Part shown: piece after piece, positions 26,937-44,880 of the stretch
Layout of the letters: every line of letters starts with the position of its first letter
How positions within the stretch are numbered: the stretch's first letter is position 1
NCBI RefSeq assembly: GCF_016735595.1
Contig: NZ_JAERRB010000005.1
Location: 372,001 to 436,000 of the forward strand
Direction of reading: 5' to 3'
Length of the DNA: 64,000 nucleotides
Origin: Chryseolinea lacunae
GTDB lineage: Bacteria; Bacteroidota; Bacteroidia; Cytophagales; Cyclobacteriaceae
The notes under the pieces: model-generated
Database searches by the model: none
Seen by the model: the letters and a program-made list of their open reading frames with translations, nothing else
Told to the model about the DNA's origin: nothing
Program-made: the position numbers and the translations under genes

Positions 26937-27258
26937 CTTTGTCGAGTGCTATGACCATAGCCATGCACCACGCGCTTCATGACGATTTTTTATCACCTCT
27001 CCCCTACAACGTAAAATCAAAAAGTCAAAATCGCCAATGCCCTCAGGTTTCACTGTAACCGATGGTGGAATTTTTATGCATTCAACTGCGCTTGCAACAA
27101 GTTGCATACAATTTTTTATTAGATTTGGTTTGACCGGTGGTACATGTTGTGTTCCTGCTGTACACTCCTCCTTTTCCCTATCAACGATCATTGACAGCAA
27201 TCATGTTCACGGGTCAACACAAGTGAAACGATTTGTCAGCCTTCCCAATCAAAAGTTT
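26937..27258. promoter_or_regulatory. Upstream region of the Tat-exported oxidoreductase with palindrome and -7 element
   Basis: 322 bases without a gene. It contains the dyad TGCAAC-AA-GTTGCA at 27093-27106, then an exact TAnnTTTG match (TAGATTTG) at 27120-27127. No TTTG is found at the normal distance; the palindrome occupies the -33 region instead, so it is a candidate operator overlapping the promoter. Confidence 0.35.
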
Positions 27259-28748: not shown

Positions 28749-29813
28749 CTAATGAAAAATTTCTTCCAGCTTTTTGGCAAGCTCTTCGCCGCGCAAGTTG
28801 CGTGCTATGATTTTTCCCTGGGGATCGATTAAGAAGTTGGCGGGAATGGCACGCACGCCATACTGCACTGCGGCTTCGTTGTTCCATCCTTTCAGATCAG
28901 AAACGTGTGCCCAGGGCAGGCCGTCTTTTTCGATGGCTTTTTTCCACTTGGTGGCGTTGTCGTCCAATGAAACACCCAGCACCTGGAAGCCTTTGTCTTT
29001 ATAGAGCTCATACTCCTTTTTCAGGTTGGGGTTCTCCTGGCGACAAGGTCCACACCAGCTGGCCCAGAATTCCAGCAACACATAGTTGCCCTTGTAAGAC
29101 GAAAGGCTCACCGTTTTTCCGTCGAGGTCGGTTTGTTTAAAGTCGATGAAGCCGTTCCCAACTTTGGTTTTCTTCAGGTTCTCTATGCGTGCCACAATCT
29201 CCGCTGCTTTCTCTGTCTTCTTCAGGTTTGCATCCAGGCCGTTGTAGATGTTGGTTGCTTCATCAAGATTGTCTTCGCCCACCCAATTCAACAGCTCGTT
29301 GAGGCTTGCATAGCTTTTGGGATGGGTGAGCACAAATTGTTTGCGCAGATCTTTTTCGCTGTTGTAAAGACTGTCGGCTTCTTTCTTAGCTTTTTCGCTT
29401 TGTGTGTAGAGGGCCGTCACCTTGTTGCGCAGCACCTGCACACCGTCTTCCAGCACTGTGAAATCATTCTGTGCCGGAGAGCCGGAAACTTTCAGGTTTG
29501 TTAAGGCATCGGAAGTGCCTTCCACTTTCATCGGCAGGTTTTCGATGTAGAACACTTTCTGAAACCGGGCTTCGGGCGAATAGATAATGCCCATGGTAGG
29601 TTCAGCACCAACTTTGCCCTTGAACGAAAACGTTCCGTTCTTCACCAGGCATGAGTCAAAACTTTCCACACCCTTCACCTGGTAGCGCATGTACATGTAT
29701 TTTACGCTGAGGCCTTTTATGGAACCGGCCAGCGTGAAGCCTTTTTGTGCATAGAGCGACGATGTCGCCAAGGTCAGCACAACCAGGCAGGTGATTTTGA
29801 TAATTTTATGCAT
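28749..29813 (-). CDS. DUF4369-TlpA family thioredoxin-like protein
   Basis: 354 residues from the ATG at 29813 (MHKIIKITCLVVLTLATSSLYAQ, signal peptide). An upstream TTG at 29825 is in frame but unnecessary. Residues ~24-115 fit the DUF4369 N-terminal domain (FTLAGSIKGLSVKYMYMRY), then a helical linker, then a thioredoxin domain with WCGPC (Cys254, Cys257). The protein is a periplasmic thiol-disulfide oxidoreductase. It follows the trypsin-like protease on the same strand with a 39-base gap, so the two may be co-expressed, possibly for handling disulfides in proteins being degraded. Confidence 0.88.
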   Translation of the reverse strand: MHKIIKITCLVVLTLATSSLYAQKGFTLAGSIKGLSVKYMYMRYQVKGVESFDSCLVKNGTFSFKGKVGAEPTMGIIYSPEARFQKVFYIENLPMKVEGTSDALTNLKVSGSPAQNDFTVLEDGVQVLRNKVTALYTQSEKAKKEADSLYNSEKDLRKQFVLTHPKSYASLNELLNWVGEDNLDEATNIYNGLDANLKKTEKAAEIVARIENLKKTKVGNGFIDFKQTDLDGKTVSLSSYKGNYVLLEFWASWCGPCRQENPNLKKEYELYKDKGFQVLGVSLDDNATKWKKAIEKDGLPWAHVSDLKGWNNEAAVQYGVRAIPANFLIDPQGKIIARNLRGEELAKKLEEIFH

Positions 29814-29852
29814 AGTGTATTTCAAGGGTTAGTGATTCAGTATATGTGATTG

Positions 29853-30710
29853 TTAACGAACGATCAGCGCGCGTATGCGCGTGGTGGGAATGGCTTCTTT
29901 TGAAACCATTTGCACATTCTGATCGGAGTGATAGAGCGCACGCGATGCCGACACCACGCCAATCACTTCGCCATGATTGTTGATGACGGGGCCACCGCTG
30001 GAGCCCTGGGCAAAGTCGGCCGTAACGCTCATCTTCTCGCCGCCGTCGCGCGCATACAATCGCGAAACGTTTCCTTTAGTGAACGAGTAATACATGGAGT
30101 GCGGGTGCGAGATGATGCTCGCCTCTTCTCCCACCACCGGCTCGGCCAGGGGCATGGGCACAAACTTTTTGCCACCGCCGTCAATTCTAAAGATGGCGAT
30201 ATCGTCTTTCAGGCTGGCGGCCAATACTTCTACTATGGGATACACATTTCCATCGGCGTCCATCACCACGTGGGCCAGGTCGGTGTCGTGGTTGCTTTGG
30301 TTGGACCGGAAGATGTGATAGCTCGTCACAGCAATGCCTTCTTCAGCAATAATAAATCCGGAGGCAGACCGCGCATGGTCGTTGGGGCAATTGGGACATT
30401 TGTATAGCGTGCCCACAATCAACACACTTTTACGACAGCGGTCATAAACGTTGACATAGTTTTCTCGTGTGCGTTGCGGCTTCAAGTCAACCCGGCAGGA
30501 GATGCGCTGCAGTTGTTCTTCCAACACATTCAACTTTGGCACCTTTTGATTGTCCATGAGCTTGCGGGCACCGGATTCGAGCTGCTGGTATACTTTCTCG
30601 TCTTCAATGGTGCCCTGGCTAAACGCATAGGTGGTGGTCTGTGCACAGGCAGGTTCCATCAGCATAAACAACGTCAGTGCTACAGCGCACGTTCCTAAAA
30701 CTTTCATCAT
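29853..30710 (-). CDS. Exported trypsin-like serine protease (S1 family)
   Basis: 285 residues from the ATG at 30710, chosen because MMKVLGTCAVALTLFMLMEP opens the signal peptide; an ATG at 30746 is also in frame. The catalytic triad is visible as His132 (TSYHIF), Asp169/170 (LKDDIAIF) and Ser238 (GSSGGPV), in the normal HtrA/S1C order. There is no PDZ domain. A CPNC cysteine pair (105-108) just before the protease domain is unusual. It lies after the terminator that closes the PUL enzyme genes, so it belongs to a separate or read-through transcript with the TlpA gene. Confidence 0.85.
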   Translation of the reverse strand: MMKVLGTCAVALTLFMLMEPACAQTTTYAFSQGTIEDEKVYQQLESGARKLMDNQKVPKLNVLEEQLQRISCRVDLKPQRTRENYVNVYDRCRKSVLIVGTLYKCPNCPNDHARSASGFIIAEEGIAVTSYHIFRSNQSNHDTDLAHVVMDADGNVYPIVEVLAASLKDDIAIFRIDGGGKKFVPMPLAEPVVGEEASIISHPHSMYYSFTKGNVSRLYARDGGEKMSVTADFAQGSSGGPVINNHGEVIGVVSASRALYHSDQNVQMVSKEAIPTTRIRALIVR

Positions 30711-30765
30711 AACTTTTATACTTGCAAAAAATGACACATACTTCATCGGAGGCGATAGAGCTTAA

Positions 30766-30918: not shown

Positions 30919-32355
30919 CTAACGTCTTTCATCGTAAAGCCCCACTTCCGCCAACGCTGGCGCACCGTTAAATTCGTCGATCGTGATGCGTAGTCGTTCG
31001 CCCCACACACGATCAAAGCGATGCACGTTAAATTTTCCTTTGCTCTCTGCGGCCAGCAGAAGTTTCCAGGTTCCGTTGCTGTAGTATTCGATACGATACG
31101 TTTTCACGTGGGCATCGCTCTCCATCACGGTGACGGTGTTGAACGGTTTTTCGCCCTGCAGATTCACTTCCCACCACGGTTTTTTCACGGTAGGGTTCGA
31201 GATCCACGCCGTGGAAAAATCGTCGTCGTTGGCAAAATCCATAATCCACATGTCGTCGCTCCAGCTGCTTCGGGTGGGTTGATGTTTGGCTATGTTGGAT
31301 GAGATGATGGGGTGCGCTGTTGTGGGAAGTTTCGCCGTGGTGGTTGCGGGCTTCCAGCGTTTGCCAATTTCCTTTAGCGCCGCCACGGCATTGTCGTCTA
31401 TCAACCCGTCGCGGTTCGGGGCAACGTTCAGGATAAAATTGCAATGAGTCATGTTGAAGGGAATAATATTTTCGTCCACCAGCTTCGCCGCGTCCTTCAC
31501 CGGCTCGTGCGGGAACCGCGTCTTCCAAAACCAGCTGCTGTTGATGGGCAAACACGACAAGGCCGGGAGGCGATTGGTTTCGCGGGCGATGTGCTGACCC
31601 GCGCCCTGTTCGTATGATTTTATGTCGGTATAGAACAGCGCCTCTGCGGGATACTTCGCCGCATTCAGATCCATGACCAGGCAGTTGGGCTGGAGCGATT
31701 TGATGAGACCATAGATTTCTTCGAACGGAATGTCATCGTAAGAGATGCGCGACCAGGGTGCGTCCCACCCGTCTATTATCAGGGCGCTGATGTCGCCATA
31801 GTTTGTGAGCAGCTCCGTCAGTTGTTCCTTCACCAGCGTGATATGGTTTGGGGTGATCTGGTGTGGGCGCAGGTTGTGGTGCGTGTCGAGTATGGAGTAG
31901 TAGAGCATCACTTTCAGACCGTTGGCACGGAAAGCGTTCACATATTCGCGCACAATGTCTTTCTTCACGGGGCTGTTCATCACCGAGTAGTTGGTGGTCT
32001 TGGTGTCCCAGATGGCAAAGCCACTGTGATGTTTTGTGGTGAGACAACCGTATTGCATGTTGGCTGCCTTTGCTGTTTTGGCCCACTGGTCGCAACTGAG
32101 CTTCGTTGGATTGAAGATTGCCGGCGATGCTTCGGGATCGGCCCAATCCTGATCGAGGTAGGTGGGGATATTAAAGTGAATGAACATTCCAAAGCGAAGG
32201 TCCACAAATTCCTGTTGCAACTGACTCAGCGCTCTGGGCTCCTGCCGCTGCGCCTGTGCACCAATCGCTAAAACGAACAATATCAGGGCAGACATTCCCT
32301 TCCTGATGGACTGTGGTATACGGACGCTTACTGAGGTTTTAGTAGAATATTTCAT
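30919..32355 (-). CDS. Secreted GH29 alpha-L-fucosidase with C-terminal F5/8 type C domain
   Basis: 478 residues from the ATG at 32355; an ATG at 32295 directly before the hydrophobic core (MSALILFVLAIGAQAQ) is an alternative. The catalytic barrel holds RFGMFIHFNIPTYLDQDW, the substrate-site TTKHHSGF (about 106-112) and the nucleophile Asp195 in LIIDGWDAPW. The last ~130 residues are discoidin-like (WISNPTVKKPWWEVNL, YRIEYYSNGTWKLL). It should remove alpha-linked fucose from glycans. It is the last enzyme gene of the PUL before the terminator and follows the peptidase gene by 49 bases. Confidence 0.9.
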   Translation of the reverse strand: MKYSTKTSVSVRIPQSIRKGMSALILFVLAIGAQAQRQEPRALSQLQQEFVDLRFGMFIHFNIPTYLDQDWADPEASPAIFNPTKLSCDQWAKTAKAANMQYGCLTTKHHSGFAIWDTKTTNYSVMNSPVKKDIVREYVNAFRANGLKVMLYYSILDTHHNLRPHQITPNHITLVKEQLTELLTNYGDISALIIDGWDAPWSRISYDDIPFEEIYGLIKSLQPNCLVMDLNAAKYPAEALFYTDIKSYEQGAGQHIARETNRLPALSCLPINSSWFWKTRFPHEPVKDAAKLVDENIIPFNMTHCNFILNVAPNRDGLIDDNAVAALKEIGKRWKPATTTAKLPTTAHPIISSNIAKHQPTRSSWSDDMWIMDFANDDDFSTAWISNPTVKKPWWEVNLQGEKPFNTVTVMESDAHVKTYRIEYYSNGTWKLLLAAESKGKFNVHRFDRVWGERLRITIDEFNGAPALAEVGLYDERR

Positions 32356-32404
32356 GATTACTTTTTTCGTAGGTGACAATGTGTGTTCCGCTGTCACGGC
32401 ATCA

Positions 32405-33091
32405 TCAATTTTTATGGACACTAAACACGGGATTGCTGGTTTCGTATTCCAGCCACAGGTCGTCGACGGTCCGGTTGGTTTCGTCGCGCCATGTTTTCTC
32501 CGAATACGTGCCCGCGCGCATGGCCGCGTCGATAGCTTTCACAATGCCAGGCCGTATATTTTGTTCCAGCCAAACAAAGAAGCGCGCGGTGACGCGGTAG
32601 CCGTGACTGTAGTGCTGCCCCGCCTTGAACGGCGGCAACGACCAACCAGCCCCGGCGTTGTCGACACCAAACGTGTAGCGCACATAGTCGGCAATGCCCT
32701 CGGTGATCCACAGCGGTTCATACTTCGGATAATCCTGAATGACGTGCATGATCTCGTGCGTAACAATATCAATGTCGCTGGCATAGTGGTGAAGCCATTG
32801 AGCCCCATAGTGCGTAACGCAGCCATAAGCTTCGCCCACGCCGTGGTAGGCCGTGTCTACCTGAAACACCACGGCACGGCAAGCGTTAACATTATACTCC
32901 TTGGCCAATACGGGATACAACTCAAAAAACGTTTTTATCATGCGGGCACGCAACCGGCCATCCAAGGTCGAGTCGTTGCTGATGAAGGTGAGCGAAAAGC
33001 CTTTGCGTTCCAGCACCTCATCGCCTTGCGCGGCCACGAACAAGGGGCACAACGTGAGCAACAGATAACCAAGCCAAACAACTTTATTCAT
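32405..33091 (-). CDS. Basic secretory family (BSP) putative zinc peptidase
   Basis: 228 residues from the ATG at 33091 (MNKVVWLGYLLLTLCPLFVAAQ, signal peptide). The zinc site is HEIMH at residues 112-116, with the third ligand probably Glu131 in WITEGIADYVRYTFG. That arrangement and the segment CRAVVFQVDTAYHGVGEAYG fit the plant-type basic secretory protein family (PF04450), predicted proteases in clan MA. It lies between GH47 and GH29 in the PUL, pointing to breakdown of glycoprotein backbones. The longer start at 33142 overlaps nothing useful and lacks a signal peptide at its end. Confidence 0.85.
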   Translation of the reverse strand: MNKVVWLGYLLLTLCPLFVAAQGDEVLERKGFSLTFISNDSTLDGRLRARMIKTFFELYPVLAKEYNVNACRAVVFQVDTAYHGVGEAYGCVTHYGAQWLHHYASDIDIVTHEIMHVIQDYPKYEPLWITEGIADYVRYTFGVDNAGAGWSLPPFKAGQHYSHGYRVTARFFVWLEQNIRPGIVKAIDAAMRAGTYSEKTWRDETNRTVDDLWLEYETSNPVFSVHKN

Positions 33092-33138
33092 AACACTTTT
33101 TGCAAACGGGTTTAGAAATTTGAGCACACACTTGATTG

Positions 33139-34566
33139 TCAATTCTTCAATAAAATCTCATCCACAACCTTCTGATCCAGCAAGCTCTTGCGAAACGTGT
33201 GGGCTTCGGTGTTAAACACGTGGTCTTCAAAGTTGAAGGTGCCCGCGTCTTCCGAGAACAGCAGGTAGAAATATTTCATAGTCTCCGCAAAAAAGAACGT
33301 AGCCAGTGCGTCGCCCTGTTGTTTGGTGACCACATTGTCTACTTTGGTATAGGCCACATCGGTACGGCAATATTTTTCGATGTCGTCGAAATATTTTTCG
33401 GCCATGCGTTTATACTTTTCATTTTTGGTAAAATGATAGAGGTAGTAGGCCGATTCAACAATTTCCGGATTGAGGTCGTAGGTATGGCTTTCAATGATTG
33501 CGGTCTTGTAGTTATAGGCCATCGGTTCCAGTCCATATTTGTTCCAGAGCCAGTCCCAGGTGGTTTGAAATTTCTCGGCTTCAGGCAGATATCCTCCCAC
33601 GGCCAGCGTGGCGGGATAGAAAGCATCGTATAGTGTCACATTGCCTCCTGCACGTGCGCCGGTGTGCATGTCTACGGGGCCATACCACACCAGTCCGTCT
33701 TTTTCTTCGGGCATGTTTTTCTGAACGGCTGCGGCGGTCACATCCCACATGGCTTTCATGTCCGGGTCCTTAAACAGCAGCCAGGTCTTGATCATGTATT
33801 CATAATACGAATCCGATCCGGCGCTGATGCTGCTTTTGCCGCTGAGCCAGTCGCCACTGTTGATGTGAATGAAGTCGCCAATGAGGTCGCGCTCCGAGCG
33901 CCGGTCGAACATCGCCTGCATGGCCTGTTTTGCTTTCTTGTAATAGATGGGGTCGCGGGTGTAGTAGCTGAGCAGTCCAAACTCCAGCGTATACGTTCCA
34001 GCCCCTGCCGGCCCTGCACCGTCGCCACTCACGGCACCGGTGTGAAGATTTACGGAAGCATAGGGAATGCCCGTGGTGGAATTGAAGGCGGGCAACAACC
34101 GGTCGCCAAAATCTTTTGCCTTCGCCAGTATTTTTGGATTGGTTGTGTATTGATACATGGACAAAAGCCCGCCCAGCACCCGGATGTTTGTTTCAAACAC
34201 CGACACCGAAATATCCTTGTTGAAGTTTAATGTCTCCACATACAATTCCACCTCTTTCGCTTCCTCGTCCAGCCCCATCACCCGCAGCGTGCTGTAGGCA
34301 TCGATGGGCGAAATAGCCAGGGGCACATCATACCAGTTGCTTCCTGTTTTTGTTAATGGATTAAACTCATCCATACCCCAGGCATATCGCTTATATCCTT
34401 CCCACGCCCGCAGCGTTTCGCTTTTCACGCGGGCCGCGCGATCATCTGTTGTTACATCTACATTTGTTTCCTCGCTGCAAGCAAACGCCACGGAGCATAA
34501 CAACACGCCCGATGCACACCATTTCATTAGCAGCGTGTTCCGAAGACCGGCCAAGGTTCGTGTCAT
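33139..34566 (-). CDS. GH47 family alpha-1,2-mannosidase lipoprotein
   Basis: 475 residues, lipoprotein signal with Cys30 (VAFAC). The sequence carries the diagnostic GH47 segments in order: YAWGMDEFNPLT (61-72), SPIDAYSTLRVMGL (86-99), FETNIRVLGGLLSMY (124-138), SDSYYEYMIKTW (251-262), LNPEIVESAYYL (365-376) and VFNTEAH (450-456). The acidic residues expected for catalysis are all present (Glu125, Asp252, Glu368), as is the calcium-binding Thr453. The family inverts alpha-1,2-mannose bonds of N-glycans and is mainly eukaryotic. It follows the HEVGH lipoprotein by 5 bases. Its length is normal for the catalytic domain. Confidence 0.93.
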   Translation of the reverse strand: MTRTLAGLRNTLLMKWCASGVLLCSVAFACSEETNVDVTTDDRAARVKSETLRAWEGYKRYAWGMDEFNPLTKTGSNWYDVPLAISPIDAYSTLRVMGLDEEAKEVELYVETLNFNKDISVSVFETNIRVLGGLLSMYQYTTNPKILAKAKDFGDRLLPAFNSTTGIPYASVNLHTGAVSGDGAGPAGAGTYTLEFGLLSYYTRDPIYYKKAKQAMQAMFDRRSERDLIGDFIHINSGDWLSGKSSISAGSDSYYEYMIKTWLLFKDPDMKAMWDVTAAAVQKNMPEEKDGLVWYGPVDMHTGARAGGNVTLYDAFYPATLAVGGYLPEAEKFQTTWDWLWNKYGLEPMAYNYKTAIIESHTYDLNPEIVESAYYLYHFTKNEKYKRMAEKYFDDIEKYCRTDVAYTKVDNVVTKQQGDALATFFFAETMKYFYLLFSEDAGTFNFEDHVFNTEAHTFRKSLLDQKVVDEILLKN

Positions 34567-34571
34567 CGTTG

Positions 34572-35528
34572 CTAGTAGTTAACGTTTGGAAAGTCTTCTT
34601 GCGCCTGCATGAATTGCGCCTCATAGTCGTCTGACCAGCCAAAGGCAAGTGTGGCTTGTTCCTTCAGGTTCACACCGGCCGCGCCACTCCAGAAATGAAT
34701 GAACTCTCCCATGTTCATGCCCCGGTCATAGAGGCTGTAGGTTCCCGTGTCATCTTTGTGTGTGGGGAAATTCTTTGACAGCAACACAAAAAACTCGTTG
34801 AGCACTTTGCTCCCGCCATACTTGCTGTAGATGGGATAGAACCAGTCGCGAAACCAATGCGTGCCCGGCCGTGGATACACATCGCTGGTGGCCATGCAGA
34901 TGTCGTAGGTGAGTTTGGCTTCTGTGTTCATGCCAATGCCTTTGTATACATCGTAGGTATAAATCTCGCACCACTTGCTGTCGCCCCATATGCCAAACGC
35001 GGGAGATTCGCGAATACCTTTCGATCCGCCTTCCACAATGTGACCCACCTCGTGTATGGGAATGCCGTAGCTGTCATATTCATCTTTCCACGACGTGTTG
35101 CCGTCGCGTCCCGACCCATTGTCTATCGCGTTTCGGTTTCCGTGGCTGGCATCCAGGTAGGATGCCGGATGACCACCCGAATATTTGTTGGCGTGCATGA
35201 TGCAGTAAAGCCGGTTCTCTTTTCCAAAATCGCCGTACACCGACTTCGTATAGCGCCAAACCTTGGGCAACAGCGCATCCATCCATTTCTGTGAGAAGTC
35301 CATGTCTTCATCAAAATAGATGGCCACATCGTCGTCGTAGTAGACCCGTTGCAGCAGCATGTCGTGTTTGTCTTTGCCCGTGCCCCAATCTTCCTGCCAC
35401 GTCTTCGACGGTGCACCCGGCGGGTCAATTTCTTCTTCAATTATTTCAGCATCCTTTCCGCCACATCCGCTCAGCATCGACAAGCAGAGCAGAAAAAAAC
35501 TATACATGACCGACTTCATTGCTTTCAT
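34572..35528 (-). CDS. Lipoprotein with HEVGH metal-binding motif, putative secreted metallopeptidase
   Basis: 318 residues, lipobox MLSGC with Cys22. The centre holds HEVGH (His159, Glu160, His163) in YGIPIHEVGHIVEGGSKG, followed by WGDSKWCEIYTYD whose acidic residues near 183-188 could be a third ligand. The C-terminal part (TLAFGWSDDYEAQF) is compact. I cannot match it to a named peptidase family; it might be a divergent zincin related to the basic secretory protein two genes downstream. It starts the enzyme part of the PUL and is closely coupled to GH47. Metallopeptidase activity is inferred from the motif only. Confidence 0.75.
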   Translation of the reverse strand: MKAMKSVMYSFFLLCLSMLSGCGGKDAEIIEEEIDPPGAPSKTWQEDWGTGKDKHDMLLQRVYYDDDVAIYFDEDMDFSQKWMDALLPKVWRYTKSVYGDFGKENRLYCIMHANKYSGGHPASYLDASHGNRNAIDNGSGRDGNTSWKDEYDSYGIPIHEVGHIVEGGSKGIRESPAFGIWGDSKWCEIYTYDVYKGIGMNTEAKLTYDICMATSDVYPRPGTHWFRDWFYPIYSKYGGSKVLNEFFVLLSKNFPTHKDDTGTYSLYDRGMNMGEFIHFWSGAAGVNLKEQATLAFGWSDDYEAQFMQAQEDFPNVNY

Positions 35529-35644
35529 ATTTATGTTTTTGATTTCGTTAAAACCGTATATAAACGCTGTTTATGTTTTTCAGACAATGCATTCCCGGCA
35601 ACAGCTTTCGCCATTGAAAAAATGCATCAGAACAAAAGGTAAAT

Positions 35645-35668
35645 CACCCTGTCGCAGGCGACAGGGTG
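35645..35668 (-). promoter_or_regulatory. Strong hairpin between the PUL lipoprotein genes and enzyme genes
   Basis: A perfect 10-bp stem (CACCCTGTCG / CGACAGGGTG) with a 4-base loop sits 8 bases after the PKD-like gene stop. On the minus strand it is followed by ATTTACCTTTTGTT, a weak T-tract. It may act as an attenuator or RNA-stability element setting expression of susCD versus the enzymes. The 148-base gap here is the longest within the susC-to-GH29 gene run. Confidence 0.55.
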
Positions 35669-35676
35669 CATGTGTT

Positions 35677-37092
35677 TTATCTGCGGATGACGATGTCGAT
35701 CGGGTTGCCAGGAATGTTCCCGACTTTTTTCAACAGGTCGCCATATTTGCCGGCGCTCACGTCCATGTAGTAGAGCGCACCTTCCACACCTGCCACCAGC
35801 AAATCATTGTCAATCAGCTTGAGCATGGTGATGTTTTTGCCTCCGAAATCCTGTTCAATGCGCTGCAGATCTTGGTTCAGCGGATTGTAGCGATAAATGT
35901 TGCTACCCGACGTGAAGTAGATGATCTCCAGGAAAGAGCCTTGCCATTTGGTGTTGGCGTCCACCAGGTTCGAGCCCGAAAACACACGATACGATTTCGG
36001 GAAGATCATGCCGGGCACATGCATGAACTTTGCTTCCTGAAGCGTGCCATCGGTGTTGCGGAAGAACGCATAGGTCGACTCGCCCGTCAGCATTTGCATA
36101 TACACCAGCTCCTTGCCGATGGCCTTGGGGTTGAAGTCAACGCCTTCATCGCTCATCACCTCGTATTGCGCACCGGCATAATCACCGACCGCACCAAACT
36201 GCACAAACTGTTGCCGGTTAACGTCGAAGCCCAGATAATGCGAACCGGCATAGATGAAGTTGTCGGATATCTTATAGTCTCCGGGCATGGCATCGCCAAA
36301 TTTTCCAAACACCGGGCTGAACGGCGCCGTTGTGTAAGCACCGATATAGAGTTTCCCGTTGATGACGCCGGTGGGCACATTGGCACCGTGACGCACCAGC
36401 GATCCCATTTGAATCTGTTTGGGTTCGGTGAAGAAATTTTCGGCGAGGTATCGCTTCCGGAACAAGGTGCTCAAACTCAACATCACGCCGGGTTTGTCGG
36501 GCTCGCCGCACAACACAAAATAATTATTATACCAATCCTGCGAAGGCACAGCTTCAATGCTAAACAACTGCAGCGGTTTGTGTGGCAACGGCTCGCCATG
36601 CAACGCTTCATAGATGTTGGCCTGAACGGTTTCGTCTGGTTTCACAAAGGCCAGTTGCGCCACACCGCCCACGTCGCTCAGCACCAGTGTGCCCTTCGTG
36701 AATTCGGAACGCACTTCGATCTTAAACGGAAAGAAATATTTCATTCCGTTTGACTTATCGGTCACAATAAACTTGGCGCTGTAGGTCGACTCTTTCAGGT
36801 GACAGACAATATTGAGATTCTTTCCGTCGTAGAACTCCTCGCGAAGGTCAACAGGATTTGAGATGTCCCACTTGTATTCCATCTGGTCGGTGGCCGACAG
36901 CGAATGTTTCACCGTGGGACGGATGATGAGACTGTCGCCGACAAAGGCTACGATCTTCACCTGCATGCCGGTGACGATGGGCTCTTCTACTTCGTTATAG
37001 GTATAGTTCCCCAGATCGTTGTAGCACGAGGTCAATGCCATGAGACCGAAGAACAGCAGAGATGCAAAACTTTTTTTCATGATTGACTGCAT
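35677..37092 (-). CDS. PKD-like family lipoprotein of the PUL
   Basis: 471 residues. The ATG at 37092 is preferred because it overlaps the preceding stop as TAATG; a second ATG at 37080 starts MKKSFASLLFFGLMALTSC, the lipoprotein signal. The N-terminus (YTYNEVEEPIVTG) and PKD-like beta segments (residues ~45-130) match the PKD-like lipoproteins usually found with SusC, SusD and DUF4843. The remainder shows propeller-like repeats (QLFSIEAVPSQDWYNNYFVL, EIIYFTSGSNIYRYN). It probably binds glycan or protein at the cell surface. Confidence 0.82.
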   Translation of the reverse strand: MQSIMKKSFASLLFFGLMALTSCYNDLGNYTYNEVEEPIVTGMQVKIVAFVGDSLIIRPTVKHSLSATDQMEYKWDISNPVDLREEFYDGKNLNIVCHLKESTYSAKFIVTDKSNGMKYFFPFKIEVRSEFTKGTLVLSDVGGVAQLAFVKPDETVQANIYEALHGEPLPHKPLQLFSIEAVPSQDWYNNYFVLCGEPDKPGVMLSLSTLFRKRYLAENFFTEPKQIQMGSLVRHGANVPTGVINGKLYIGAYTTAPFSPVFGKFGDAMPGDYKISDNFIYAGSHYLGFDVNRQQFVQFGAVGDYAGAQYEVMSDEGVDFNPKAIGKELVYMQMLTGESTYAFFRNTDGTLQEAKFMHVPGMIFPKSYRVFSGSNLVDANTKWQGSFLEIIYFTSGSNIYRYNPLNQDLQRIEQDFGGKNITMLKLIDNDLLVAGVEGALYYMDVSAGKYGDLLKKVGNIPGNPIDIVIRR

Positions 37093-38009
37093 TAGTGGTT
37101 GATGGTTATGGGCTTGCCCTTTTCGTCGATAAAGTAATATTCACCATCCTCCTGGCTCTTTTTCAGCAAATACTTCTTTGCCGGATTGGCTTCGGTGTGA
37201 AGAAAGAAGGTGTCGTCTCCATTATCCGTGAGCACATACCCTTTGTCATTTTCAGCCACCCAGTCGAAGGGAAAGACCAGCAACGCCTTTAGCTTCTCGA
37301 TCAGGTAAAGATTATAGGGTATCTGGTATTGATTCTCACCATCATAGTTGGCCACCAAGTCGATGTTGCCTACGGCGATGATATAGAGGGCGTGCTTGGT
37401 GCGAGAGTAGCTTGCCAGTTCGCCTTGCCAGAGTGTCCACCACAACGGTTTTTCGAGTCGGTTGGAGAACATGATCGCCGTCTCGGATTTTCGCGCAACG
37501 TCCACACTAAAATCTTCGGTGGATGCGAGTTTAAGGTTGATGAACAGGCTTTGTGAATCAAGCTTTGCATCGGTGTTATAGAGGATGACGGGAACCCACG
37601 TCTGACCTGAGTCGGCCGGCAGGGTATACGATTCCAGCAACGGCTGATAGTGCACCGAAGATTCGGCCGTCGTCTTTTTAGACGTAACAACGACTTTAAA
37701 CTTCCGGTCGTGATGAACGCGTGTGCCCGAGAGCGAAACCGGCACATACACGGTGTCGGTGGTCTTCTCCGGCGTGAGAGCAAACGTGTAAGACAAAACA
37801 CTGTCGCGCTTGTCGAGCTTTTTGTCCTTGATTTCCTCTTCCGACAGTCCCACTTCCTTGCTGGAGCCAAAGTATACATTATCCGCGCTGGAATACTTCA
37901 GCGGTTCGTCCGCATTGCAGGCAAACAGCAGGGTCATGAGCAGCATGCATCCTGCACGCCATCCGTTCGACAGCGTCATGCGGGTATTTATAGTGTTATG
38001 TAAAATCAT
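37092..38009 (-). CDS. DUF4843 domain lipoprotein of the PUL
   Basis: 305 residues from the ATG at 38009; the internal ATG at 37979 (MTLSNGWRAGCMLLMTLLFAC) is the alternative and carries the lipobox. Key segments are DNVYFGSSKEVGLSEEEIKD, LSYTFALTPEKTTDTVYVPV and a C-terminal region with WWTLWQGELASYSRTKHALY, typical of DUF4843 proteins that follow SusD. The role is surface glycan binding or support of the SusCD complex (inference from context). It begins 12 bases after the susD stop and ends in a TAATG overlap with the next gene. Confidence 0.82.
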   Translation of the reverse strand: MILHNTINTRMTLSNGWRAGCMLLMTLLFACNADEPLKYSSADNVYFGSSKEVGLSEEEIKDKKLDKRDSVLSYTFALTPEKTTDTVYVPVSLSGTRVHHDRKFKVVVTSKKTTAESSVHYQPLLESYTLPADSGQTWVPVILYNTDAKLDSQSLFINLKLASTEDFSVDVARKSETAIMFSNRLEKPLWWTLWQGELASYSRTKHALYIIAVGNIDLVANYDGENQYQIPYNLYLIEKLKALLVFPFDWVAENDKGYVLTDNGDDTFFLHTEANPAKKYLLKKSQEDGEYYFIDEKGKPITINH

Positions 38010-38021
38010 GTGTTGATGTTT

Positions 38022-39527
38022 TTAGTTGCCTGAAAACTGAATCTCATCGTCTGGCAGTGGCAATACAAAAATCTGACTGGAAGGGCCATAGGTTTCCGTG
38101 CCACTTTGGTTGATTACCGGTCTGTTCAGTCGCTTGTAGAAATAGAACAGTTGCCCTTCTGCAAACAATTCTTTCCGGTATTCCTTCGACAGTTTGGTGT
38201 AGAAGAATTCCGGGTCATACTCGCCGTGAATTTCATAGAGTCCACCAATACCGCGGTTCAGTCGCACCTCGTTAAAATAGCGCCACGCTCTTTCGCTGTC
38301 GGAGTTGAACACGCATTCGGCAGCGATGTAATACATCTCGCTGAGGCGTATGGCCGGTGCCATAATGGTATGCATATTTCCGTCGTTGCTGCGTTTGTAT
38401 TTCTCCAGCGACACCGTAGTGCCCTGGCTGGCGAATTTAAACCACTGTTTGTAGCGCAGATCTTCCGCACCTTCTGCGGCCACTTCATAGATGAAGTCGC
38501 ATGAGTTTTGTTTCAGTGTGAGGCCAATGCTTCCCCGCTGAAATCGATCCGACAGGGCGCCGGTGTAATTGGGAATCTCCCATCCAAAAATCAGTTCCTT
38601 ATACAGGATGCGGTCTTTCTTGGCTTCGTCTACTGCGGCGAAGTCGTTGGGTTCGGTCCACGGAAATTTCTTCGAAGCAATAACCGTCTCGGCGTTGGTC
38701 AATGCATTTTCTTTGTCGCCCTTATACAGGTAGGCACGTGCTAATGCACCGCACACACCATAAAAATTAAGGCGATGACGTCTGTTTCGTAAAAACAGGG
38801 CGCCGGCTTCTTCGTTCGAGCCATCGTCGGGAAGTGTGTTGCCATCGTCGCCATCGAAGGTATAGCCCACCACATAGGCGCCGTTCAGAATGGGATCGGA
38901 ACTGCGCAACAAGTCTTTGGCGTTGTTCAGGTCGGCGAGGATGCTGTCGAGCGCCGCAGCCACGGTAACTTTCTGAACAACCTTATTGCTGTAGCGGGTC
39001 ACATAGGGAATACTTTCAGCTGTGGGCCCCACGGCATACGACGGTGCAAACATTCTCAGCAGATCGAGGTGCAGATAGCCGCGCAACGCCAGGGCCTCAC
39101 CTTTCACGATCAGATAATTGTCGCCTGTGAAAATATTCTCACGGGCATCGATGTTCTCCAGAATCAGGTTGCAGTTGCCAATGGCACCGTAGAGTCCGAT
39201 CCATGCGGCATCTCTCCGTTTCACAAAATCCTTGTCTTTGTAATTGTACTGCGCGGTCTGCTCATAAGGGAATAGCGTGTTGGTCACGTCTACCACGTCG
39301 TAGTTTTGAGCCATCACATCCAGGAAACCAAAGGTCAGTTCGTTGCCGTAGAGTTCGGGTTTGATGCAGCGCGAATACACGCCGTTCAACGCCTCCAGGA
39401 AACCTTCTTCGGTCTGGAACAAACTTTCCCTGTCCACTTCAGACTGTGGCTTGATGTCGAGGTAATCACCACAGGAAGCGAGTGCCACCAGAGCAAAAAT
39501 CCATATTGCATACTTTCTCATGATCAT
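38022..39527 (-). CDS. SusD/RagB family nutrient-binding outer membrane lipoprotein
   Basis: 501 residues. Lipoprotein signal MIMRKYAIWIFALVALASC, with a second ATG at 39521. The N-terminal DYLDIKPQSEVDRESLFQTEEGFLEALNGVY and the TPR-like helices with ALRGYLHLDLLRMFAPSY are hallmarks of SusD. The tail ends RPVINQSGTETYGPSSQIFVLPLPDDEIQFSGN, also typical. It caps the SusC channel and binds oligosaccharide or glycopeptide ligand at the cell surface. The start lies 6 bases after susC, so the two are co-translated. Confidence 0.95.
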   Translation of the reverse strand: MIMRKYAIWIFALVALASCGDYLDIKPQSEVDRESLFQTEEGFLEALNGVYSRCIKPELYGNELTFGFLDVMAQNYDVVDVTNTLFPYEQTAQYNYKDKDFVKRRDAAWIGLYGAIGNCNLILENIDARENIFTGDNYLIVKGEALALRGYLHLDLLRMFAPSYAVGPTAESIPYVTRYSNKVVQKVTVAAALDSILADLNNAKDLLRSSDPILNGAYVVGYTFDGDDGNTLPDDGSNEEAGALFLRNRRHRLNFYGVCGALARAYLYKGDKENALTNAETVIASKKFPWTEPNDFAAVDEAKKDRILYKELIFGWEIPNYTGALSDRFQRGSIGLTLKQNSCDFIYEVAAEGAEDLRYKQWFKFASQGTTVSLEKYKRSNDGNMHTIMAPAIRLSEMYYIAAECVFNSDSERAWRYFNEVRLNRGIGGLYEIHGEYDPEFFYTKLSKEYRKELFAEGQLFYFYKRLNRPVINQSGTETYGPSSQIFVLPLPDDEIQFSGN

Positions 39528-39533
39528 CTGAGG

Positions 39534-42500
39534 TTAGAATCTTGACTGAAGTGAAAATGTTACCATGCGCGCAAACGGATACTCAATGCCACGTTCCATG
39601 GTCACGGCCGACCATCGCCAGGGATCGTTCATGGTCACGGTGAAGCGAAGCATTTGCATGGCCAACTTCTGCGTAATGAAACGCGGTGTTTCATACGAGA
39701 GCGCCAACGTGCGCAGCTCGATCACATCGTCGGCCTGAATGAAGCGAGAGCTGGCCTTGGTCGGATTCTGGTCGGCAATGTTCTTGAAGAACACCTGGTC
39801 GCCGGGCTGTTTCCAGCGCTGGTCCAGCACACGCTGATCCACGTTGTAGCGGGGGTCGGCATTCTCCACACGATCGATCAGTGTCTGGTTGTATACATCA
39901 CCTCCCCACCGGGTGTAGAAGCTGAGCATCAACATGAAGTTCCGGTAAGAAATGTTGGTACCGAAAAATCCTTCTACCTTGGGGCTTGAGTTTCCAACGG
40001 CCACTATGTCTTTCACATCATAGTCGTAGGTGAGCGAGCCATCCTTCTTCATAAAAATCTCTTTGCCGTTTTCGGGGTCAATGCCCAGCGAACGCACAGC
40101 ATAGATGGTGTTCAGTGACTGACCTTCCTGGAAACGCAACAGCGGAACACTCTGGTAGTCTTCTTCGATCTGCTTTTCATCGGCCTCGTCGTTATATTTT
40201 TTCAGCGAGTTGGCGATGCGGCGGATTTTGTTTTCGTTGTGCACCAGGTTGGACGTAATGTTTACCGTCCAGTCTTTGGCGCGCACCACGTTGGCCATGA
40301 AGTTGAGTTCAAAGCCGGTGTTCTGCATCTGTCCCAGGTTGTCTTTGTAGGCGAGATATCCCAGCGAGGGTGGCACCACAATGTCGGCCAGCAAGTCGTC
40401 GGTGATCTTATAATAATAGCGCGGCGACACCATGATGCGGTTGTTGAACAACGTAGCATCAATGCCTACGTCATAGTTGTGCGTGCGTTGCCACCGGAGG
40501 TTTTCGTTTCCATAGCCCATGGGTTCCACGCCAATGCCGGTAGAATACCAGTCGTTAAAATACTGATAGGTGGTTTGTGCCTGGTAGGCCGGGAACGCCA
40601 CAACACCGGTGAGGCCCGTGCTGGCGCGCAGCTTCAACTGGTCGATGTAGGTTGCTCCCGACAGGAAATCTTCCTTGTGCAGGTTCCAGCCAATGCCCGT
40701 TGCCCAAAACGGCGCCACCTTGTTGTCGGTGCCGAACTTCGACGAGCCATCAAGACGCGCCGCCACATCGAGCAGATATTTGTTGTCATAAGAATAGTTG
40801 ACGCTCAGAAAACCAGACGCCAGGCGCTCGTGTATGTAGATACCCGTTGGCGGGTCGTCGCTGTAGCGGTTGGCAAAGTCGATGTTGGGAAAGCGGTCGT
40901 TGGAATATCCCAGCGCCACAAACTTTTTGAAGTCCGAACGATAGTCGCGGAAGTTGCCACCCAGCGACGCATTCAGAAAGTGCTTGCCCAGTTCCTTGTT
41001 GTAGGAAAGCACGGCGTTTCCGTCGAGTGTAAATTCGCCCGTTGTGCCAAACGTATACTCACCGCGTTTCTTCGGGTCGGTCTCCGTCTGGTATTCGTTG
41101 CGGAAAGGCGATTTGAAAATGTCGGTAGTGGCATCATACTTCGTGAAATTCAAAAGCCCACGCAAGGTCAACCCGTTGGTGATGTTCCACACGGTCGAGA
41201 ATGAATTAATGATCTGTGTATAGGCCGACTGGTTTTTGCTGTTGAGGGTGGCGTCATACAACGGGTTCAGCACACCGCTTGTGATCAGCGAATTCTGGTT
41301 GTCCACCGTTCCGCGGGTTACCCAGCTGTCGACTTCGCGGATGATGTTTCCCTTCTCATCACGTTTGAGGTAATAGGGATTCATGCGCACATAGTCGGCA
41401 AAGTTTCCGTAGGGCGACTCTGTCGATTTCACAAAGTTCACCGACAGGTCGTTAGAGAAAAGAAGCTTGTCGTTGAGGTTGTGTATAAGCTTGATGTCGC
41501 CGCCATACCGTTTCCGTCCCGAGCTTTTCATCACGCCGGGCAACTGGTGATTGTAGGCCGTAAGGGCATAGCGCGTGGCCTTTGATCCGCCTTGTATGCT
41601 CAGTGAGTTTTTATGACCGATGGCCGTCTCTACTGGTTCAGAAAGCCAGTAAGTGTCGACCCCCGACAATACACTTTTCTTTTTGTTATAGTACAGCTCG
41701 TCAAACTCTCCCTGGCTCAGTGTCGATTGTAACACATTCGCATCATAGAGGCCGGCCAGTCGTTCGTATTCCAGTTTATCGGAAGCGTTCAACACGTTGT
41801 AGACCGAGAGGTCGGGACCTGTAACGTTCATTTCATAATTGTAGAACAATTGTAGTTTTCCCTCCTCCGGCTTGTGGGTGGTAATGACCAGCACGCCGTT
41901 GGCTGCACGCGAACCATACACGGCCGTAGCGGCAGCATCTTTGAGCAAGGTGACCGACGCCACGCGATTGATGTCCAGGTCGTAGATGGTTTGAAGCGTC
42001 ACCTCAAAGCCGTCCAGGATGAACGTGGGCAGGTTTGGGTTGCTCTGCAAGCCGTTCTTGTTCAGCTTGTCGATGTCGCCCGCGCTCGAAGGCAATCCGG
42101 AAGCGCCACGCACGTTGATGTCGGGCAGCTTGTTGGGGTTTGATCCAAACGCGTTGTTCTGAATAACTTTGAACGACGGATCGTAGGCCTGAATACTTTG
42201 AAAGATGTTCACCGGGTTCACTTTCTTAAGGTCCTCGCCCGACACGGTGATGGCCGTGCCCGTGAAACTTTCCTTGCGAATTTCCTGGTAGCCGGTGATG
42301 ACCACTTCCTTCAACGCCGAAATGTTTTCTTCCATCGACACATCAATGGTGGTGCGACCGTCAACGGCAATTTCGTAGGTGGCAAAGCCGATAAACGAAA
42401 ACAGCAGCACATCGCCTTCGGCCGTTTCCAGCGTGTATTTTCCGTTCACATCCGTGGCCGTGCCCCGCATGGTGTTTTTGATGAGCACGTTCACACCAGG

Positions 42501-42959
42501 CATAGCCTGCCGCGTCGTGGCATCTACCACGGTGCCGCTAACGGCGTGGGCGATCCAGCGTTCGGCGTTCATACTGCCCTGGCTCTTGTCGGCCACCAGA
42601 TTGTCTTCGGCCTTGAACAGCAGAATGTGATTGTTCACCAGGTTGAAGCCAATGCCTAGCGGCTTGAGCATGTTGTCCAACACATCTTTGAGTTGTGCCT
42701 GTGAAACCTGGATGGAGACTTTTTCCAGGACCGGGATAGCCGAAGGGCTATATACAAATTTTACATTCACTTGTTTTTGGATCTCCGTCAGCACCTGACG
42801 GACTTCGGTGTCGGTCACCGCGAGGGACACCGGCTTTTCCAGCATCGATTGTGCGCTGGCGGTCAATGCGAGGCACGCGCCCAGCCATGCCAGGAAAAAT
42901 TTCGCACGCATAGCCATCCTTGTTGTTTTAAGAAAAACAACAAATTGTTTTTTTTCCAT
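39534..42959 (-). CDS. SusC/RagA family TonB-dependent transporter with STN domain
   Basis: 1141 residues from the ATG at 42959. Signal peptide ends near TASAQ (37). Residues ~44-115 form an STN (secretin/TonB N-terminus) domain (VSLAVTDTEVRQVLTEIQKQ), then a carboxypeptidase-regulatory-like domain (SGTVVDATTRQAMPGVNV), the plug (EVVITGYQEIRKESFTG, SVTLLKDAAATAVYGSRAANG) and a large barrel. The STN domain is the signature of transporters that signal through FecR anti-sigma factors, and such a gene lies directly upstream. It imports glycan or glycopeptide across the outer membrane. Confidence 0.95.
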   Translation of the reverse strand: MEKKQFVVFLKTTRMAMRAKFFLAWLGACLALTASAQSMLEKPVSLAVTDTEVRQVLTEIQKQVNVKFVYSPSAIPVLEKVSIQVSQAQLKDVLDNMLKPLGIGFNLVNNHILLFKAEDNLVADKSQGSMNAERWIAHAVSGTVVDATTRQAMPGVNVLIKNTMRGTATDVNGKYTLETAEGDVLLFSFIGFATYEIAVDGRTTIDVSMEENISALKEVVITGYQEIRKESFTGTAITVSGEDLKKVNPVNIFQSIQAYDPSFKVIQNNAFGSNPNKLPDINVRGASGLPSSAGDIDKLNKNGLQSNPNLPTFILDGFEVTLQTIYDLDINRVASVTLLKDAAATAVYGSRAANGVLVITTHKPEEGKLQLFYNYEMNVTGPDLSVYNVLNASDKLEYERLAGLYDANVLQSTLSQGEFDELYYNKKKSVLSGVDTYWLSEPVETAIGHKNSLSIQGGSKATRYALTAYNHQLPGVMKSSGRKRYGGDIKLIHNLNDKLLFSNDLSVNFVKSTESPYGNFADYVRMNPYYLKRDEKGNIIREVDSWVTRGTVDNQNSLITSGVLNPLYDATLNSKNQSAYTQIINSFSTVWNITNGLTLRGLLNFTKYDATTDIFKSPFRNEYQTETDPKKRGEYTFGTTGEFTLDGNAVLSYNKELGKHFLNASLGGNFRDYRSDFKKFVALGYSNDRFPNIDFANRYSDDPPTGIYIHERLASGFLSVNYSYDNKYLLDVAARLDGSSKFGTDNKVAPFWATGIGWNLHKEDFLSGATYIDQLKLRASTGLTGVVAFPAYQAQTTYQYFNDWYSTGIGVEPMGYGNENLRWQRTHNYDVGIDATLFNNRIMVSPRYYYKITDDLLADIVVPPSLGYLAYKDNLGQMQNTGFELNFMANVVRAKDWTVNITSNLVHNENKIRRIANSLKKYNDEADEKQIEEDYQSVPLLRFQEGQSLNTIYAVRSLGIDPENGKEIFMKKDGSLTYDYDVKDIVAVGNSSPKVEGFFGTNISYRNFMLMLSFYTRWGGDVYNQTLIDRVENADPRYNVDQRVLDQRWKQPGDQVFFKNIADQNPTKASSRFIQADDVIELRTLALSYETPRFITQKLAMQMLRFTVTMNDPWRWSAVTMERGIEYPFARMVTFSLQSRF

Positions 42960-43139
42960 ACCTTTAAATAAGTTTTGTTGCAGATGATGTTCTCGACAAA
43001 ACACTGCCCTTCCAAGAGCAGGTTAAGCGCTGGCGGTGTTCGTGCATCGTCAGCGTTTTCTATTTAAGGGCTATGTGTGTTCGTAGATGTTAGCGTTCAT
43101 AGGTTCTTCAGGTTTAGGTTTATACATTATATTAGGTGG

Positions 43140-44165
43140 TCATGGATTGCAATGCCCTCCGCGAATGACGATGGAGGTTTCCTGCACGGCATAGGTCGCG
43201 CTGACGGACCTGCACACCAGGTCAAGGCTGGTGTATACATCCAGGCCTGTCAAATCTCCCGTAAAGGTGCAGTGGGTTATGGTCGCTTGCTCCAGTGACA
43301 TGGGAATGTTGTAGGTGCGCGCCAGGCGATCAAACACTTCGGCCACAGATTCTGCAGCGAAGTTGACATCCACAGCCACTACTTCTTCGGTCACCGGCTT
43401 GGGCACGGCCACCAACGACACATTGAGTTCTTCGGTGTCGGGCAGATAAACAACCCGTTGATTTGGGGTGAGCGCTATGCTCTTTTCGAGCGGAAGAATG
43501 CGTTGAATGAAGCGCGCCTTTTCGTTGCGAACCACAATAACTTTCCCGGAGGTCACAGAAACTTCACTTTGCTTATTGGCACCGTTGGCCTTGATGGTGA
43601 AACTGGTGCCCACCACTTGTGTGATGAGGTTATCGCTGAAAACATAGAACGGCTTCGTCCGGTCTTTGGCGACCTGGAAAAAAGCTTCGCCACGCAGAGT
43701 CACTTCTCGCTTTGCGCCGGTGAACGCAACGGGATAGGTCAATGATGCGCCGGGTTGAAGCGTTACCTTGCTGCCATCTTTCAATACAATTTCCAAAGGC
43801 GATTGCGACTCATTGGTGCGTTCCACAATGTCGCGTTGCACCGTGGCCACAAAGGCAGGCTCGATGGCCGGTACACGCACAACGTAGGCCACCACACACA
43901 AAATTCCGATCAGCGAAGCAGCGATGGCCAGGGCAGGCCACAGGGTTCTGACCTTGGCGGGCACAACCGGTGTTTCTTTTCCCATCCTGGACTGAAGTGC
44001 CGTCCAAAGCCTTTCGTCCATGCGGTTCAATTCGTGCGCATCGGGCCCCTCAAGCTCTTCGTCGTCGAGCAGCCCATACCATTGCTCAACAATGCGCTTC
44101 TCCGCTTCAGAACATTTTCCTTCCTGATAGCGCTCTAATAGTCGATGGAATGCTTCGCGGCTCAT
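43140..44165 (-). CDS. FecR-family anti-sigma factor
   Basis: 341 residues, ATG at 44165. The cytoplasmic N-terminus (about 1-70) resembles the sigma-binding region. One membrane helix lies at about 74-95 (LWPALAIAASLIGILCVV). The periplasmic FecR domain has LKDGSKVTLQPGASLTYP, KREVTLRGEAFFQVAKD and TQVVGTSFTIKA. The C-terminal ~75 residues form the DUF4974/STN-like part (FDRLARTYNIPMSLEQATI), which should contact the STN domain of SusC. It lies between the ECF sigma gene and susC, completing a trans-envelope signalling module. Confidence 0.93.
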   Translation of the reverse strand: MSREAFHRLLERYQEGKCSEAEKRIVEQWYGLLDDEELEGPDAHELNRMDERLWTALQSRMGKETPVVPAKVRTLWPALAIAASLIGILCVVAYVVRVPAIEPAFVATVQRDIVERTNESQSPLEIVLKDGSKVTLQPGASLTYPVAFTGAKREVTLRGEAFFQVAKDRTKPFYVFSDNLITQVVGTSFTIKANGANKQSEVSVTSGKVIVVRNEKARFIQRILPLEKSIALTPNQRVVYLPDTEELNVSLVAVPKPVTEEVVAVDVNFAAESVAEVFDRLARTYNIPMSLEQATITHCTFTGDLTGLDVYTSLDLVCRSVSATYAVQETSIVIRGGHCNP

Positions 44166-44298
44166 AGAAATAAACTTGGTGGTTTTTAAAGGCTATGTAG
44201 CGAAAGTGGTACCCCACCCCTAAACGGGTGTTAACAATTTTTTAACAACTTTCTTTGTCAGCAGGGAATAACGTTTGCGGTAGGCAAACACGCAAAGG

Positions 44299-44880
44299 TC
44301 ACAGCAGGTTGATGAAGATCAACCCGGCAACAAAATAGTCTTTCAGGTGAAGACGCATAATTTTAAGAGACTGGGTGATGTGATACTCCACAGCCTTTTC
44401 GGATATGTCGAGATCTTTGGCGATCTCTTTAACGGTTCGATTTTCGAAACGACTCAGCCGAAACACCACGCCCGTCTTGTGAGGCAACAATTCAATTCCT
44501 TTCTCGATGGCTTCCGACAGATCGCTTAGCATGGTGATCTCCTCGGTGGTGTGGGTAATGGTTTGATTATTCCCCTGCACATAGTTGACATACTTCTCGT
44601 GCACCATCTGCACCTTATAGTAGTTGATGATGCTGAACTTAATCGCGCCAAACAGCCACGATTGCAAATTCAGGATGGCGTGTTCACGTCGGCGCTCCCA
44701 CAAGCTCAAAAACAGATTCTGCACCAGCTCTTCTGCCGGCTCCTTGCTTTTCACTTTCCTATAGGCAACCCAGAAGACTTCCTTCCAATAGCGGTCATAA
44801 ATTTCACGAAACGCCACCTCGTCCTCGTGCTGTGTCACGAGGTTCAAGAGTTGTTCATCCTGAAGGTTTGCGTAGATCAT
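44299..44880 (-). CDS. ECF sigma factor controlling the PUL
   Basis: 193 residues, ATG at 44880 (MIYANLQDEQLLNLVTQ). Region 2 includes EVAFREIYDRYWKEVFWVAYRKV and EPAEELVQNLFLSLWERR; region 4 includes FRLSRFENRTVKEIAKDLDISEKAVEY, with the recognition helix. This is the normal form of Bacteroidota PUL-type ECF sigma factors. Its anti-sigma factor is the FecR protein encoded 133 bases downstream. When SusC binds ligand, released sigma should transcribe the susC operon. Confidence 0.93.
   Translation of the reverse strand: MIYANLQDEQLLNLVTQHEDEVAFREIYDRYWKEVFWVAYRKVKSKEPAEELVQNLFLSLWERRREHAILNLQSWLFGAIKFSIINYYKVQMVHEKYVNYVQGNNQTITHTTEEITMLSDLSEAIEKGIELLPHKTGVVFRLSRFENRTVKEIAKDLDISEKAVEYHITQSLKIMRLHLKDYFVAGLIFINLL

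Follow-up and report, generated by a model that had tools for sequence, protein, structure and literature searches.

The stretch of DNA considered here, a 64,000-nucleotide window of contig NZ_JAERRB010000005.1 of Chryseolinea lacunae (positions 372,001–436,000; all coordinates below are those of the window), carries on its minus strand, from 44880 to 28749, a SusCD-type operon of twelve genes in a row, as recognised from open reading frames and Pfam matches. At its head lie an extracytoplasmic function (ECF) sigma factor (44299–44880; NCBIfam TIGR02985, 4.9e-38) and a FecR-type anti-sigma factor (43140–44165; PF04773, 8e-14, with FecR_C), followed by a SusC-type TonB-dependent transporter with an N-terminal STN signalling domain (39534–43004; TIGR04056, 3.6e-189; STN, 2.2e-07) and a SusD-type surface lipoprotein (38022–39527; PF14322, 9e-19). 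A DUF4843 lipoprotein (37092–38009; PF16132, 1.1e-42) and a PKD_2 lipoprotein, which is a candidate surface binding protein (35677–37092; PF16407, 2.3e-24), come next. They are followed by an HExxH lipoprotein without an assigned family, given here the working name pepX (34572–35528), a predicted GH47 alpha-mannosidase of eukaryotic type (33139–34566), a BSP-family zinc peptidase (32405–33142), a predicted GH29 alpha-L-fucosidase with a C-terminal F5/8C domain (30919–32421), a trypsin-like secreted serine protease (29853–30746; PF13365, 2.9e-23) and, as the last gene, a TlpA-like thioredoxin with DUF4369 (28749–29825; PF00578, 1.3e-28, and PF14289). Besides the TlpA-like thioredoxin, the operon thus encodes three peptidase-type proteins (pepX, BSP and the trypsin-like protein) and, as exo-glycosidases, GH47 and GH29. 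With susC and susD side by side, carbohydrate-active enzymes and a linked regulator, all recognised by Pfam and NCBIfam, the locus is a polysaccharide utilization locus (PUL), and the STN domain of SusC fits a FecI/FecR-type switch. The sigma/anti-sigma switch and SusCD pair, the two surface lipoproteins (the DUF4843 and PKD_2 proteins, with signals judged by eye) and the GH29 fucosidase proposed in the initial annotation of this DNA are all borne out.

The run is bounded at both ends, since a divergent desaturase gene (from 45134) and a convergent oxidoreductase gene (27037–28647) flank it, and from SusC through GH29 adjacent genes overlap or lie 5–148 bases apart. The locus had originally been delimited at 30919–44880, which is too short: homologs of the trypsin-like and TlpA-like proteins close the related PULs described below, and the two genes at 28749–30746 therefore belong to it as well. 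A promoter scan did no better than shuffled sequence (17 against 14.9), nor did a terminator scan (21 against 19.9), so that the operon was delimited by strand, spacing and comparison with homologous loci. The first start codon of each frame was taken as the start of the gene, which makes the small overlaps unsure, and signals were assigned by eye, without a predictor, giving lipoprotein-like N-termini for GH47 and pepX and signal peptides without a lipobox for BSP, GH29 and the trypsin-like protein.

The assignment of 33139–34566 to GH47 withstood the profile search, PF01532 matching with 3e-108 over profile positions 4–454 (451 of 455), that is, at full length. E125, D252, E368 and T453 are invariant across 13 bacterial GH47 sequences and in the alignment with CkGH47 of Caulobacter K31, the nearest solved relative (6.6e-70), with which the catalytic Glu/Asp/Glu positions are shared. 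We take these residues to be the counterparts of E121, D249, E365 and the calcium-binding threonine of GH47 enzymes, and their catalytic roles are assumed on that basis. Judged by sequence, the fold and catalysts of the protein are those of GH47, and its linkage preference is a prediction. In the GH29 protein (PF01120, 7e-46; PF00754, 8e-12), D217 and E260 are invariant in five aligned sequences and are presumably catalytic. Full-length GH47 was found in 5 of 196 sampled genomes of the family (own genome counted; a sixth has a weak partial match) and in 32 of 395 sampled Bacteroidota genomes (own counted; nine more have weak partial matches only), and a pattern scan yielded at least 504 GH47 relatives among the 588 pattern matches listed. 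The notion that GH47 is rare in bacteria was rejected on these counts of phylum genomes and pattern matches. Within the genus, GH47 occurs in one of six genomes, the own one, the five congeners being without it.

The SusCD/DUF4843/PKD_2/trypsin/TlpA core recurs without GH47 in five other loci of three genera (L091, L182, L183, L198 and L199; L and G numbers denote the stretches and genomes compared). GH47 is thus the variable part of the PUL, and the initial view of a locus built around it does not hold: this is a SusCD system of proteolytic character whose mannosidase can be exchanged. The full-length SusC proteins of the related PULs score 1354–1458 bits against that of the window, other SusC-like proteins in the compared stretches reaching at most 266. 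Across the five loci, SusC is 56–59% identical (the L198/L199 copies there being cut by the stretch ends) and the trypsin-like protease 54–58%, and the orthologs of SusD, PKD_2 and the TlpA-like protein are 51–56%, 39–49% and 53–56% identical, respectively. In L198 and L199, which belong to genomes G156 and G177 of one genus in the window's family, SusC, SusD, DUF4843, PKD_2, trypsin and TlpA are followed by GH29 (67–69% identical to that of the window), BSP (51–52%) and two GH92. The head of this PUL, with sigma factor, FecR and full-length SusC, is supplied by the adjoining stretches L200 and L201; the sigma ortholog scores 249 bits in each genome and FecR 296 and 280 bits. The PUL therefore resembles that of the window in its sigma-FecR-SusCD-DUF4843-PKD_2-trypsin-TlpA core, its GH29 and its BSP, but differs in that GH47 is absent, the GH29-BSP-GH92 genes are placed after TlpA and pepX does not occur in the stretches read. 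To judge from gene content, two GH92 here take the place of GH47 as predicted alpha-mannosidase. In L182 and L183, from one genus in another family of the order, the order is sigma (61% identical), FecR (40%), SusC (58%), SusD, DUF4843, PKD_2, a BSP-trypsin fusion and TlpA. L091, whose contig begins just ahead of pepX, has pepX followed by SusC, SusD, DUF4843, PKD_2, trypsin and TlpA.

A whole-genome search found no GH92 in the window's assembly, which is 100% complete, whereas each of ten comparison genomes gave 3–12 GH92 matches; among the five congeners, three have 1–4 and two have none. GH92 has thus been either lost or never gained in this genome, with GH47 as a plausible stand-in, and the two versions of the operon, one with two GH92 in one genus and the other with a single GH47 in a GH92-free genome, could amount to a natural swap experiment. 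Mutual exclusion is no general rule: GH92 lies near 23 of 110 other GH47 genes, and at least two of three tested strong-hit GH47 genomes of the family are GH92-rich (G010 with 8, G049 with 17 and G059 with 9; only G002 is without).

These 110 distinct loci derive from 115 other GH47 stretches of differing length (five contigs are present twice), in all 115 of which the GH47 gene was confirmed, including L056, L062 and L068, where longer overlapping frames mask it. The complete gene order of the window was absent from all 110, a SusC-like gene near GH47 is uncommon (7/110), GH29 is found in 5/110, and no BSP, pepX, PKD_2 or DUF4843 match above 40 bits was obtained around any of them. Two of the 23 neighbouring GH92 are fused to GH47, GH92 being N-terminal and GH47 C-terminal (L048:382–3930 and L051:7070–10600), which suggests that both enzymes can act on one substrate. 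In Mucilaginibacter frigoritolerans, a GH29 open frame of just 83 amino acids directly follows GH47 (L106:11384–11635).

Of the two proteins with peptidase-type zinc motifs noted initially, the one at 32405–33142 has a known family, BSP (PF04450, 7e-18), and the other, pepX (34572–35528, motif HEVGH), has none. The BSP match spans the C-terminal 127 of 207 profile positions, comparably short matches occurring in several homologs, and the HExxH...TEGxADY motif, HEIMH...TEGIADY in the window, is invariant in five aligned sequences. True BSP was defined as a match above 60 bits, a cut chosen after two groups had appeared (65.7–167.1 and at most 29.7 bits), lower rows not being counted, and this gave BSP genes at 25 places in 20 genomes. 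Ten of the 25 have a GH92 at a distance of at most 10 kb, where the density of GH92 would predict 0.57 (P = 7e-11, with loci treated as independent and genome sizes rounded). Same-genus sets exist among these genomes (G156/G177; G602/G615; G330/G273; G292/G403/G566/G450); counted by genus, 8 of 13 have BSP within this distance of GH92, and in the phylum sample taken by itself, whose genomes were selected without regard to pepX, 7 of the 14 BSP genes above 60 bits lie no farther than that from a GH92. In addition, BSP is fused to GH92 in a protein of 988 amino acids (L195:9485–12451, with a SusC-like gene and a further frame ahead of it), to trypsin in L182, and to pepX in a protein of 907 amino acids composed of pepX, two F5/8C stretches, BSP and a type IX secretion tail (L090:7732–10455). 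Together with GH92-GH47, these four kinds of predicted fusion link the operon's types of peptidase and mannosidase into a chain, and they are direct targets for assays. For biotechnology, such loci may be a source of bacterial GH47 enzymes and of candidate glycoprotein-specific peptidases.

No match to pepX was found in Pfam (to E = 1, the M60 profile included), NCBIfam (to 0.1) or PDB sequences, and membership of a known peptidase family was rejected for that reason. H159, E160, H163, E166 and D183 are invariant in 11 aligned pepX sequences. An AlphaFold2 model (mean predicted local distance difference test score 82.5) gave its best fold matches with M1 aminopeptidases and the M30 peptidase lugdulysin, which are weak (best Foldseek E 1.9e-3, template modelling score 0.46, none at or below 0.001). 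On the motif and the model, pepX is likely a gluzincin metallopeptidase of a new family with presumed peptidase activity, D183 being a candidate for the third zinc ligand. The protein is rare (7 of 196 family genomes and 3 of 395 phylum genomes, own counted in both), and BSP is present in its stretch at 7 of 13 loci: the window, L082, L086, L087, L088, L090 (as the fusion) and L176. BSP, pepX and two GH92 occur together in L086, from the window's family, and in L176, from another class of the phylum, and since these lineages are distant, the association of pepX, BSP and mannosidase is not limited to one lineage. A function can therewith be suggested for the BSP peptidases and the new HExxH family of Bacteroidota: they would digest glycoproteins alongside alpha-mannosidases. 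A second SusC locus, L087 (L088 by similar frames), is present in the genomes that carry the GH92 form of the PUL; besides pepX and BSP it has a CHU_C/fibronectin protein and a PorP/SprF-like protein, which suggests that a related system is secreted by the type IX route.

The reading that we favour, and hold to be fairly probable, is that the operon serves for the uptake of glycosylated protein in Bacteroidota: a PUL that combines proteolysis with alpha-mannosidase action and employs GH47 in the role held elsewhere by GH92. SusD, DUF4843 and PKD_2 would hold a mannosylated, partly fucosylated glycoprotein at the surface, where GH47 would remove alpha-1,2-mannose and pepX would cut the protein chain. 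SusC would then import glycopeptides, whose breakdown would be completed in the periplasm by BSP and the trypsin-like enzyme, while TlpA, placed there by a guess from its family, would reduce disulfides and GH29 would remove fucose. The locus may in this way trim mannose and fucose from N-glycans, and its core would be a protein/glycoprotein PUL to which a related genus has added two GH92 and for which the GH92-free genome of the window uses one GH47. The glycoprotein-directed role proposed at the outset gains strong support, independently, from the orthologous PULs with GH92, GH29 and peptidases, and from the repeated position of BSP beside, or fused to, alpha-mannosidases.

Among known systems, the closest N-glycan PUL is PUL72 of B. 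thetaiotaomicron (with BT3987), which acts on high-mannose N-glycan and has SusCD, its own sigma/anti-sigma pair, a surface GH18 endo-beta-N-acetylglucosaminidase (ENGase) and three periplasmic GH92 (PMC11180146). It shares with the window SusCD, dedicated regulation and alpha-mannosidases; the window operon differs by having neither ENGase nor GH92 and, instead, one GH47, GH29 and three peptidase-type genes. By analogy, the closest published model for the proposed mechanism is BT4240-50 of the same species, a mucin O-glycoprotein PUL with a surface M60-like peptidase, for which glycopeptide import by SusCD after surface proteolysis has been proposed (PMC11992087). A surface metallopeptidase (in the window the candidate pepX), SusCD and glycosidases are common to both, but BT4240-50 uses the M60-like enzyme with GH2 and GH109 for O-glycans, whereas the window joins GH47 and GH29 to pepX, BSP and a trypsin-like protein. 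Plant N-glycan breakdown has been described as depending on a keystone peptide-N-glycosidase (PNGase) and GH92 (PMC9522356). No GH47 PUL or BSP-mannosidase system was described in the titles and abstract openings of the literature searched, which was mostly open-access and did not include bioRxiv.

Several observations weigh against the favoured reading. Position 313 of GH47 is tyrosine in the window and in four other rows of the 13-sequence alignment, the remaining eight having leucine, and it aligns with Leu310 of CkGH47, a residue conserved in human GH47 enzymes; CkGH47 itself is reported to be active on alpha-1,2-mannobiose (PMC10685318). The window protein further differs in its lipoprotein-like signal and its SusCD operon with peptidases, CkGH47 having been compared as a protein alone. 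In a quick tree built without eukaryotic rows, the window GH47 falls within a mostly Bacteroidota branch of 61 rows, on an end branch of 1.34 and in no supported smaller group. Because of the tyrosine and this long, unsupported branch, alpha-1,2 specificity is uncertain. GH29, too, has leucine where solved relatives carry the glutamate of the ETC/WEA motif. Fifteen of the 25 BSP loci are not near GH92, 6 of 13 pepX loci lack BSP in their stretch (among them L091, which starts at a contig edge), and an alpha-mannosidase is present at only three pepX loci: the window, which has GH47, and L086 and L176, which both have two GH92. Neither ENGase (GH18/GH85) nor PNGase is among the Pfam matches of the operon genes. 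Gene content, order, motifs and conserved neighbours are direct readings of the DNA, from which the substrate, the activities of the enzymes and the expression of the locus are inferred.

A more specific proposal, which we regard as tentative and on balance doubtful, is that pepX, BSP and an alpha-mannosidase constitute an undescribed Bacteroidota module for the digestion of N-glycoproteins, in which BSP and pepX would be glycan-guided peptidases cutting near mannose-trimmed N-glycans, with GH92 and GH47 interchangeable as the mannosidase. If this were true, bacteria would possess a peptidase-based N-glycoprotein route, at which the locus hints, needing neither ENGase nor PNGase. The stretches covered of L182, L183 and L091 contain the core without a mannosidase, so that what the core basically takes up may be plain protein or peptide, and this favours a rival that we consider unlikely: a general protein/peptide uptake locus resembling RagAB, a SusCD-type system of peptide import (PMC11992087), whose peptidases and SusCD would take any protein, with GH47 and GH29 as recent passengers adding little. 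L182 and L183 and, within contig reach, L091 carry the core without glycosidases, and the five congeners lack GH47; against this stand the recurrence of GH29, BSP and two alpha-mannosidases in the orthologous L198/L199 and a linkage of BSP to mannosidases far above chance, one fusion included. Appreciably less probable is that the locus serves fungal mannoproteins, or some other fucose-bearing alpha-mannose polymer, with the glycan, not the protein, as main nutrient. GH47 cleaves alpha-1,2-mannosides, which fungal mannoproteins also contain, but the operon has a single exo-mannosidase, three peptidase-type genes and, among its Pfam matches, no GH76, GH99 or other endo-mannanase. That the GH47/BSP/GH29 cluster is a functionless relic left by rearrangement of an ancestral PUL with GH92, as a gene order unlike L198/L199 (mannosidase-BSP-GH29 before trypsin-TlpA, not after) and the 83-amino-acid GH29 frame of L106 might suggest, is very improbable, given frames of full length against their profiles (BSP excepted, with its C-terminal 127 of 207), intact catalytic positions and genes that overlap or abut in operon style.

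A transfer RNA scan of the window found none. Outside the operon, the window also contains another GH29 fucosidase (58577–60655), which bears two F5/8C stretches and, at its C-terminus, a domain of chitobiase type, as well as an M1-type (53904–55760) and an M48-type (16933–18366) peptidase gene.

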